Source of the DNA: Bacteroidota bacterium
GTDB taxonomy: Bacteria > Bacteroidota > Bacteroidia > AKYH767-A > 2013-40CM-41-45
DNA length: 64,000 nt
Direction of reading: 5' to 3'
NCBI GenBank assembly: GCA_004295015.1
Contig: SHNE01000024.1
Location: forward strand, 1 to 64,000
The notes under the pieces were generated by a model. That model made no database searches. It worked only from the letters and a program-made list of their open reading frames with translations, and was not told where the DNA came from. This document shows, in pieces, positions 50,675 to 52,874 of the stretch; within the stretch, counting starts at the first letter, position 1; every line of letters begins with the position of its first letter. Both the position numbers and the translations under genes were made by a program.

Positions 50675-50764
50675 CCACTTGTTCTGAAATTATACCAATT
50701 ATCCGAAATTAGAACCACTTATGCATTGCATGTAACAATGCAGCCCTCTGATGTCGTTTCTTTG
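50675..50764 (+). promoter_or_regulatory. Phased control element, copy 1 (3 x CCACTT plus TTTCTTTG)
   Basis: Octamers start at exactly 20-bp steps: CCACTTGT at 50675, CCAATTAT at 50695 and CCACTTAT at 50715. TTTCTTTG (a variant of the -7 box) starts at 50757, 42 bases after the start of the last octamer. The same layout with the same spacing is found before the paralogous gene at 51965. Two-turn spacing suggests a protein binding one face of the DNA. Confidence 0.6.
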
Positions 50765-50811
50765 AGTAAGAATTCAAACAATAAAAAATTCACCCTTTAA
50801 TTCTGAAAGCC

Positions 50812-51549
50812 ATGAAAAATCTTCTTCACCTCCGCAACAACAAGATGAACACTTCACTTCGTTCAATCCTTGCCACCTCCCTGATCGCTCTTACTATGAT
50901 GAGCTGCTCGAAAGAAGATATTCAACCGGCAACTTCTGTTAATTCATTAGAAAATGCACGTACTCGTTCTACTGCATCAATGCAAGACAATGGAGCTATC
51001 GCTGCTAATAATGACCAGGCCTTAATAGCAATTCAAATAGCTGCAACTGCCAATGAAGCTTCCGCCAGAATAATTATAAGCACAGACGGCTTGGTTAACA
51101 TAAGTACAAAAGGCGAAAAAGCAAATCAGTTCAGTCAATACAGAATAGATGCTTCTTCTCTCACTCATTTGCTTGACATGTTACAAACTTCCGCAAACAC
51201 TGACCAGGCTTATACTTCTTCTAACAATCAGGGATTTCGGAACAACCAATCCGAAGCATACCATGCAACTAATAAGAATGCTTACTTACATAAAGTTCAT
51301 GCCGAAGGATACAATGCAACTACAAACAATGCCTTCCTCAATAACCAGTCTGAAGCGTACTCTGCAACTAACTCCCTTGCATCAATCATCACAGAAGTAC
51401 AATACCGTTCTTGCAGCACTTGCAACCCTATCGTTTTCACTAATGATGATGCCCAGGCACGCACACGCTCTAACACATTCATTGCTGACCTTGATCGGAT
51501 CATTAACCTTCATGCCCTTTTAAACAATCACAGAGCTGCAAACAAATAG
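50812..51549 (+). CDS. Asn/Ala/Ser-rich repeat lipoprotein, paralog 1
   Basis: This 245-residue lipoprotein has a lipobox LTMMSC at about residues 27-32, with CSKED directly after it. That acidic-plus-lysine pattern resembles the lipoprotein export signal that sends Bacteroidota lipoproteins to the cell surface. A conserved region follows (NARTRS, ALIAIQIAATANEAS, DGLVNISTKG). Degenerate 16-17-residue repeats cover about 135-190 (NNQSEAYHATNKNAYLH). A C-terminal YRSCSTCNPIVF with two cysteines is followed by a helical tail. I do not recognise the family. ATG 50812 and ATG 50845 are both conserved in the paralog; either could start the signal peptide. Confidence 0.7.
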   Translation: MKNLLHLRNNKMNTSLRSILATSLIALTMMSCSKEDIQPATSVNSLENARTRSTASMQDNGAIAANNDQALIAIQIAATANEASARIIISTDGLVNISTKGEKANQFSQYRIDASSLTHLLDMLQTSANTDQAYTSSNNQGFRNNQSEAYHATNKNAYLHKVHAEGYNATTNNAFLNNQSEAYSATNSLASIITEVQYRSCSTCNPIVFTNDDAQARTRSNTFIADLDRIINLHALLNNHRAANK

Positions 51550-51562
51550 TCAATCCCAAAAT

Positions 51563-51591
51563 TATCTTCTTCATACCCTGAAAAGAAGATA
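51563..51591 (+). other. Stem-loop in the 3' untranslated region
   Basis: A perfect 9-bp inverted repeat TATCTTCTT/AAGAAGATA with an 11-base loop lies 14 bases after the lipoprotein stop. It has no T tract, and a true terminator lies about 85 bases further on. It may protect the mRNA or be a small RNA structure. Confidence 0.45.
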
Positions 51592-51676
51592 GAGAGCTTA
51601 ACACAGAAAGCAAGATCATCAACTGCGGTCACATGAAACACAACACTTGTTTTCAAGTTTAAATTTTTCAAGCTCC

Positions 51677-51713
51677 AATGCCGGCACCCCTGAATGTGCC
51701 GGCATTATTTTTT
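51677..51713 (+). terminator. Rho-independent terminator of paralog 1
   Basis: A perfect 11-bp stem AATGCCGGCAC/GTGCCGGCATT with an 8-base loop is followed by TATTTTTT-like sequence. It lies 128 bases after the stop, which gives a long 3' untranslated region. The rest of the 415-base gap to the next gene holds the phased element at 51830-51919 and no gene. Confidence 0.9.
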
Positions 51714-51829
51714 GCAATTAATTTTAACTCTTAACCCCGACATCTATTGAGTGCACTGTGACGGTGTGCTGTATACGGTTTAGATTTAATAAGCAGCCAG
51801 GGTGATTTAGGATTTGAAAGATCAACCAA

Positions 51830-51919
51830 CCACTTGTCGCAGTTTACCGCCACTTGTCCAAAAGTGTGGCCACTTATACAGTGCCTGTATCAAAGCAGCC
51901 CCCGGAAGTCGTTTCTTTG
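51830..51919 (+). promoter_or_regulatory. Phased control element, copy 2 (3 x CCACTT plus TTTCTTTG)
   Basis: CCACTTGT at 51830, CCACTTGT at 51850 and CCACTTAT at 51870 are exactly 20 bp apart. TTTCTTTG starts at 51912, again 42 bases after the start of the last octamer. The sequences between the elements differ from copy 1 in the upstream half, so the elements themselves appear to be under selection. The gene start is 95 bases after the last octamer (97 in copy 1). Confidence 0.65.
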
Positions 51920-51964: not shown

Positions 51965-52795
51965 ATGAAAAATCTACTCAACCTCCGCAACAACCAGATG
52001 AACACTTCTCTTCGTTCCATCTTTGCCTCTTCTCTCATAGCTCTTACAATGATGAGCTGCTCAAAAGAAGACATCCAACCAACTACTTCTTATAATTCAT
52101 TGGAAAATGCACGTACTCGTTCTACCGCTTCTCAAATGAACAATGAAGCAACAGCAGCTAATAACGACCAGGCCTTGATAGCTATCCAAATAGCTGCAAC
52201 TGCCAATGAAGCTTCTTCAAGAATAATCATCACTACAGACGGTTTAGTTAATATCAGTACAAACGGTCAAAAGGCAAATCAATTCAGTCAGTACAGAATA
52301 GATCCTTCTTCTTTCACTCATTTGCTTGATCTTTTACAAACTTCTGCAAATACTGACCAGGCTTATTCTGCATCTAATAATCAGGCTTTCCAAAATAACC
52401 AGTCAGAAGCTTACAGTGCATCAAATAACAATGCGTTCCAGGCTAACCAATCAGAAGCTTACAGTGCATCAAATAACAATGCGTTCCAAGCTAACCAATC
52501 TGAAGCCTACAGTGCATCAAATAACAATGCGTTCCAGGCTAACCAATCTGAAGCTTACAGTGCATCGAATAACAATGCTTTCCGGGCTAATCAATCTGAA
52601 GCATATACTGCAACTAACTCACTAGCCTCATCAATCACAGAAGTTCAGTACCGCTCTTGCAGCACTTGCAATCCAATCGTTTTCAATAATGATAATTCAC
52701 AGGCTCGCACACGTTCCAATACATTCATCAATGACGTTGATCGCACTATCAATTTAAACGCACTTTTAAATCTTCACAGATCTGCAATTAAATAA
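51965..52795 (+). CDS. Asn/Ala/Ser-rich repeat lipoprotein, paralog 2 (expanded repeats)
   Basis: This 276-residue lipoprotein is a clear tandem paralog of the gene at 50812. It shares the MKNLLNLRNN start, the lipobox LTMMSC with CSKED after it, the ALIAIQIAATANEAS core, YRSCSTCNPIVF and the helical tail. It differs in the middle, where four nearly identical units NQSEAYSASNNNAFQA replace the worn repeats of paralog 1. I chose ATG 51965 because it aligns with paralog 1, and the frame upstream of it is promoter DNA. The function is unknown. A surface fibre or adhesin-like role is a guess from the regular low-complexity repeats. Confidence 0.72.
   Translation: MKNLLNLRNNQMNTSLRSIFASSLIALTMMSCSKEDIQPTTSYNSLENARTRSTASQMNNEATAANNDQALIAIQIAATANEASSRIIITTDGLVNISTNGQKANQFSQYRIDPSSFTHLLDLLQTSANTDQAYSASNNQAFQNNQSEAYSASNNNAFQANQSEAYSASNNNAFQANQSEAYSASNNNAFQANQSEAYSASNNNAFRANQSEAYTATNSLASSITEVQYRSCSTCNPIVFNNDNSQARTRSNTFINDVDRTINLNALLNLHRSAIK
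52397..52588 (+). repeat. Four tandem 48-bp coding repeats
   Basis: Four head-to-tail 48-bp units start at 52397, 52445, 52493 and 52541. They encode NQSEAYSASNNNAFQA three times and NQSEAYSASNNNAFRA once. Partial, older units flank both sides. The units differ mostly at synonymous or near-synonymous sites, which points to recent expansion or gene conversion. Confidence 0.93.
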
Positions 52796-52836: not shown

Positions 52837-52874
52837 AAAAAAACCGGTAATCAAAATGATTGCCGGTTTTTTTT
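52837..52874. terminator. Bidirectional terminator
   Basis: A 12-bp stem AACCGGTAATCA/TGATTGCCGGTT (one G-T pair) with a three-A loop has an A run before it and eight T residues at the 3' side. It serves the lipoprotein gene on the plus strand and the convergent exonuclease gene on the minus strand. Confidence 0.9.

Follow-up and report, generated by a model that had tools for sequence, protein, structure and literature searches.

Putative LytTR-type operator and promoter arrays upstream of two duplicated lipoprotein genes in a Bacteroidota bacterium

The two lipoprotein paralogues encoded in the window analyzed here (the whole stretch of 64,000 nt from contig SHNE01000024.1) are each preceded by three octamers that are very probably docking sites for a response regulator of the LytTR family, with a constant distance separating them from a Bacteroidota promoter. 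It is likely that each array serves as operator and promoter for a LytTR response regulator, most probably a 242-aa protein encoded on contig C9, which would activate the lipoprotein genes. This reading rests on sequence, in which the repeats, their spacing, their linkage to LytTR genes and their register with a promoter box were observed; from these we infer binding by the C9 protein, its phosphorylation, activation rather than repression, and the choice among the four LytTR proteins of this genome. The site appears to be of a known kind, the new aspects being its three half-sites, the Bacteroidota promoter, and a small RNA and lipoproteins as putative targets; no defined operator for receiver-LytTR proteins of Bacteroidota was found in the literature searched. 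With the half-site, the spacing and the promoter distance, LytTR regulons can be read directly from sequence, and the arrays tie the regulator both to lipoproteins outside the known families and to a small-RNA candidate that is conserved. The features of the two window arrays and their genes are as follows:

50675..50682, + strand, half-site 1 of array 1, CCACTTGT, putative LytTR site before lipoprotein gene 1
50695..50702, + strand, half-site 2 of array 1, CCAATTAT, putative LytTR site
50715..50722, + strand, half-site 3 of array 1, CCACTTAT, putative LytTR site, promoter-proximal
50731..50734, + strand, possible –33 element TGTA of array 1, tentative, from the alignment of family copies
50757..50764, + strand, TTTCTTTG of array 1, predicted –7 promoter element of TAnnTTTG type, +42 from half-site 3
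50812..51549, + strand, lipoprotein paralogue 1, 245 aa, putative target
51677..51706, + strand, terminator-like hairpin 3′ of paralogue 1
51830..51837, + strand, half-site 1 of array 2, CCACTTGT, putative LytTR site before lipoprotein gene 2
51850..51857, + strand, half-site 2 of array 2, CCACTTGT, putative LytTR site
51870..51877, + strand, half-site 3 of array 2, CCACTTAT, putative LytTR site
51886..51889, + strand, possible –33 element TGTA of array 2, tentative
51912..51919, + strand, TTTCTTTG of array 2, predicted –7 promoter element, +42 from half-site 3
51965..52795, + strand, lipoprotein paralogue 2, 276 aa, tandem 16-aa repeats, putative target
52837..52873, + strand, probable terminator 3′ of paralogue 2, inverted repeat with T-run

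The octamer starts given by the first-pass annotation were correct to the base, and its placement of TTTCTTTG at +42 and of the start codons at 95–97 in both copies was exact, the distance from the start of octamer 3 being 97 nt to the ATG at 50812 and 95 nt to the ATG at 51965. Both arrays are parts of one tandem duplication of the lipoprotein gene, with flanks and genes about 77–84% identical; therefore, they are not independent and their mutual agreement is weak evidence. The poor conservation reported between the octamers held for spacer 1, which diverged almost completely between the two copies, and only in part for spacer 2. The presence of a terminator-like hairpin after each paralogue indicated that each lipoprotein gene is its own transcription unit. 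Neither lipoprotein matched a Pfam or NCBIfam family above cut-off, and a search of 79 other genomes gave no homologue at E≤0.001. In paralogue 2, 48-nt (16-aa) units of EAYSASNNNAFQANQS type are repeated in tandem (window 52361-52600), whereas paralogue 1 has them in degenerate form only.

The search for further copies of the triple-octamer pattern revealed, with up to three mismatches, four matches in the window versus 0.21 expected from shuffles, the two exact ones being the window arrays. The scan of the whole 3.86-Mb genome that had been proposed along with the original observation returned, with up to two mismatches allowed, three matches, all of them exact, namely the window pair and a third copy on another contig (C20:48166-48213, minus strand), while the reversed control of the pattern gave 0 matches in the same 3.86 Mb. 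The C20 array is found in unrelated DNA, downstream of an smc-like gene, and presents TTTCTTTG at +41 from its last octamer, thus supplying the first independent support for the window pattern. Behind it (L003, minus strand, ~1285-1460), only a 16-codon frame, MKTRTQINRFRNSEVP, and a strong terminator were observed, so that its product looks like a short RNA or a tiny protein. A two-octamer pattern with one mismatch matched 41 times in this genome versus 31 in the control, mostly by chance, and five loci from an octamer scan of all species genomes (L038, L088, L103, L118, and L124) were plain tandem repeats and were set aside. Moreover, in the congener G001, the syntenic locus, with the same ABC-transporter and exonuclease-like neighbors, carries a strongly diverged lipoprotein gene (34% identical over 118 aa), located only via its array, upstream of which CCAATTAT/CCATATAT, spaced 20 bp apart, are preserved together with TTTCTTTA at +42. 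The octamers and the box were, in this way, conserved while their surroundings diverged.

In 90 LytTR-gene loci (301 kb), which were chosen for the LytTR gene and not for the octamer and some of which overlap, all 15 CCANTTRT pairs at spacings of 12–39 (15/15) sit at 20 or 21 nt, part of the genomes having been picked for arrays elsewhere and the family relatives not. The reversed CCANTTRT gave 0 pairs at the same spacings in these 90 loci. LytTR sites in general consist of repeats of 9–11 nt separated by spacers of 11–13 nt (PMC4847170), and the array copies, with half-sites of 8–9 nt and gaps of 12–13 nt between octamers (steps of 20 and 21), agree with this rule. For example, the published repeats are ACCACTTAT-12 bp-ACCGCTTAT for BrsR of S. 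mutans, ACCACTTAC-12 bp-ACCACTTGC in S. pneumoniae, and ACCACTTAT-11 bp-GCCACTTAT, i.e., a 20-bp step, in Treponema bryantii (PMC6193735). The CCACTTAT and CCACTTGT octamers resemble the published ACCACTTAT, ACCACTTAC, and ACCACTTGC (PMC6193735 Tables 2 and 3); in fact, once the A or G that usually stands before it is included, the window octamer forms the same word, repeated at the same step. The earlier proposal, in which a protein contacts direct repeats on a single helix face adjacent to a promoter, is supported as the best reading, and the accompanying statement that no Bacteroidota regulator was known for the site is superseded by the probable identity of the octamer as a LytTR half-site.

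This genome (G000) encodes four LytTR proteins, on contigs C9, C10, C19, and C1, in a family whose members carry 1–15 such regulators per genome, with up to 76 in one genome of the same class; LytTR regulators are thus numerous in Bacteroidota. The C9 protein (74084-74809; 242 aa) is composed of receiver and LytTR domains (PF00072, 71.6 bits with a cut-off of 30.2; PF04397, 61.2 bits with a cut-off of 22.6), which places it in the receiver-LytTR class, and its best NCBIfam match was the BtsR model (2e-34, although its 119 bits fall short of the cut-off of 246). Directly 3′ of its gene lies CCACTTAT-13 nt-CCACTTAT, in an array whose third half-site (CCGGCTGC) and box (CATTTTTG) are both weak, while no octamers were found alongside the LytTR genes of C10, C19, and C1. 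Because four LytTR proteins are present, it is the position of its gene only that singles out the C9 protein as the probable acting regulator. Similarly, octamer arrays begin no more than some tens of bases 3′ of the LytTR orthologues of G000, G001, G005, G006, and G010, the C9 orthologues being 58% (G005), 66% (G006), and 55% (G010) identical. Conservation in relatives, when checked, thus extended to copies beside a LytTR regulator gene in several genera: arrays immediately 3′ of such a gene occur not just in this genome and that of its congener but also in further genera of the family and the order and in Flavobacterium. In Flavobacterium microcysteis, a triple detected by an octamers-only scan (L109) lies 56 bp behind a sensor-kinase/LytTR-regulator pair whose regulator matches PF04397. 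A profile built from the sequence of seven arrays was searched in 43 genomes, and, with the training arrays left out of the counts, 7 of the 79 matches listed were located ≤250 bp 3′ of a LytTR regulator on the same strand, versus 0.004 expected by a simple Poisson estimate; several order-level matches had poor E-values when taken alone.

In G001, a frameshift, which may reflect either real loss or an error of sequencing, divides the linked regulator (L143 5380-6113, C5) into two frames, while the genes of G000, G005, and G006 are intact; G009 has a regulator homologue without octamers alongside. In neither this genome nor G001 does a histidine kinase adjoin the linked regulator. Behind the C9 regulator gene, the next large gene, on the opposite strand, encodes a receiver protein with a C-terminal hydrophobic stretch. 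Such a protein was observed head-on beside the small-RNA locus in both congeners (L155 2093-2590; L143 6376-6873), and it is possible that it is a partner of the linked regulator.

Regarding the promoter, the steps and box distance are 20, 20, +42 in the window arrays and 20, 20, +41 in C20, and 21, 20, +41 in the regulator-linked arrays of G000, G001, G005, and G006 and in a separate G006 site; the rigid 20-bp step and +42 box first described are valid for the window arrays, but elsewhere the values are 20 or 21 and +41 or +42. The box is TTTCTTTG in most arrays (exact at +41 also in G005, at two G006 sites and in C20), TTACTTTG in G001, and CATTTTTG at the C9 gene, and the forms TATCTTAG and TATCATTG occur at +42 before G006 peptides and a G002 lipoprotein. 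It matches the Bacteroidota –7 consensus TAnnTTTG at five of six positions; in Bacteroides, including B. thetaiotaomicron, the –7 box is TATCTTTG (PMC6193735 Table 3). In 17 distinct Flavobacteriaceae arrays found by their octamers alone, the TAnnTTTG score, computed at 80 offsets, peaked exactly at +41 (z 4.3; next best 2.0), which indicates that TTTCTTTG corresponds to the –7 element and places the last half-site at about –50. This is the usual position of an activator. Therefore, of the initial view of TTTCTTTG as a control element, the association with the promoter stands but the separate box does not, since it is most simply the –7 element of a Bacteroidota promoter, and transcription from array 1 would be expected to start a few bases 3′ of TTTCTTTG at 50757-50764. 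TG(T/C) is found in most copies 26 nt before the box start, i.e., with a 22-bp spacer, the –33 rule being about 19–21 bp before –7. Many triple octamer arrays were also observed in Flavobacteriaceae (Polaribacter, Flavobacterium; L041, L060, L064, L083, L086, L094, L096, L109, L110, and others), often before secreted proteins, some of them with partly conserved spacers (TCCAATATATG).

In the mechanism proposed, the phosphorylated C9 regulator would bind three CCANTTRT half-sites that lie on the same side of the DNA at intervals of 20–21 bp, and would recruit or stabilize the RNA polymerase–sigma complex at TTTCTTTG (–7), located 41–42 bp beyond half-site 3, so that the lipoprotein genes would be switched on. 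The C20 short transcript and the small-RNA candidate directly behind the regulator's own gene would be driven by it as well.

The LytTR assignment was made because of the linkage, the 20/21 spacing, the published repeats, the promoter register, and the octamers at the diverged G001 locus. The likeliest of the rival explanations keeps the sites as LytTR sites but has the C10, C19, or C1 protein, or several, acting on the window arrays; the presence of four such proteins, the frameshift in the regulator gene linked to the congener's array and the ability of related LytTR proteins to use common half-sites, known for HdrR and BrsR (PMC6193735), are in its favor, but the octamers adjoin the C9 gene only, which makes it unlikely. 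A LytTR protein could also repress the promoter; nevertheless, the half-sites lie upstream of the –33/–7 region without overlapping it, as in LytTR-activated promoters, where the repeats are ~10 bp upstream of –35 (PMC6193735), and the want of a good –33 consensus is what an activator-dependent promoter would present, so that repression seems improbable.

Several regulator families rely on direct repeats with helical spacing ahead of a promoter, which would leave room for, e.g., a winged-helix protein of OmpR/PhoB type. The repeated adjacency to LytTR genes in independent genomes and the near-identity with published LytTR repeats (PMC6193735) render this highly improbable. The idea that the octamers are functionless relics of a 20-bp tandem repeat that was copied together with the duplicated gene draws on the window arrays being duplicates and on some matches of the collection scan being plain 20-bp or 10-bp tandem repeats (L038, L088, L118, and L124). 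It is hardly tenable against the retention of the octamers while the spacers differ between copies, the unrelated third copy on C20 with its box at +41, the alternation of the spacing between 20 and 21, and the octamers kept at the diverged syntenic locus of G001.

The regulator-linked arrays precede, in four genomes, a structured small-RNA candidate. In G000, G001, G005, and G006, a hairpin with an invariant GGGTCGCAGCG was found 3′ of the regulator gene, and in G009 such a hairpin follows a separate site (L180 2383-2424, in C9 of G000; L143 6276-6317; L181 1292-1333, minus strand; L182 1300-1341, minus strand; L274 5336-5377), lying between the octamer array and a terminator-like hairpin. 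Seven of the nine pairs of its stem are changed on both sides, and only 2 of 500 shuffles reached the observed percentage paired and 3 of 500 the covariation score. The hairpin is a candidate for a previously undescribed small-RNA family; no Rfam family scored above its gathering score at the small-RNA loci, and a search of the window for a pairing target of the invariant GGGTCGCAGCG loop gave nothing above chance. A further GGGTCGCAGCG hairpin in G001 (L308, C1:95402) has no octamers nearby.

Several known systems resemble the arrays in part. Those of HdrR/BrsR in S. mutans share a near-identical half-site, ACCACTTAT, a 20–21 bp step, repeats upstream of the promoter, and linkage to the regulator gene, but have two half-sites instead of three and a sigma-70 –35/–10 promoter (PMC6193735). 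Moreover, they involve small LytTR regulators with a membrane inhibitor and an array upstream of the regulator operon, whereas here the protein is a receiver-LytTR one and the array lies behind its gene. Streptococcal-type LytTR Regulatory Systems are recognized by the absence of a receiver and an operon with a membrane inhibitor, and the C9 protein, which has a receiver, falls outside them. BtsR and YpdB of the LytS/LytTR two-component systems of E. coli combine receiver and LytTR domains and use direct repeats, as here, but with two repeats, a paired membrane LytS-type kinase, and pyruvate-responsive transporter genes as targets; the YpdB half-site, GGCATTTCAT, differs from the octamer (PMC4847170). 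The LRS-like operons of Bacteroides also have Bacteroidota LytTR regulators and repeats upstream of a TATCTTTG –7 promoter, but present two 11-bp repeats, TCCGGTATTCA, with an 11-bp spacer, and membrane-bound LytTR proteins (PMC6193735 Table 3).

In S. aureus, the candidate RNA also has a parallel in logic, as the LytTR response regulator AgrA activates a nearby regulatory RNA, RNAIII, by means of direct repeats. The candidate was compared with RNAIII through the Rfam scan; here, no quorum-sensing operon was seen and the RNA candidate is placed directly behind the regulator gene. A broader reading, for which the balance is about even, is that Bacteroidota possess an AgrA-RNAIII-like logic in which a LytTR regulator, through a three-half-site promoter behind its own gene, would drive a new family of structured small RNA (a covarying stem topped by the invariant GGGTCGCAGCG and followed by a terminator) together with lipoproteins, and in relatives also surface proteins and peptides of the double-glycine type; three half-sites with a –7 box at +41 would then be a general LytTR promoter architecture across the class Bacteroidia.

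In this genome, the arrays are followed by the two lipoproteins, the C20 short transcript and the region 3′ of the C9 gene, and arrays were also found before lipoproteins in G002 and G009. In G006, two array sites precede small peptides; at one of them (C58; L271 5179-5717, minus strand), tandem 45–47-aa peptides with a double-glycine-type leader, KLSKAEAKAITGG, lie behind the octamer site and gave a weak bacteriocin-like leader match in NCBIfam, below cut-off, so that these peptides are possibly bacteriocin-like and under LytTR control. In another family of the order (G025, G032, and G036; L279, L278, and L280), the regulator and the array are followed by a large surface-type protein. These surface-type proteins share a CCxxxQPCxCxAGVxxxGGxPPY-like start.
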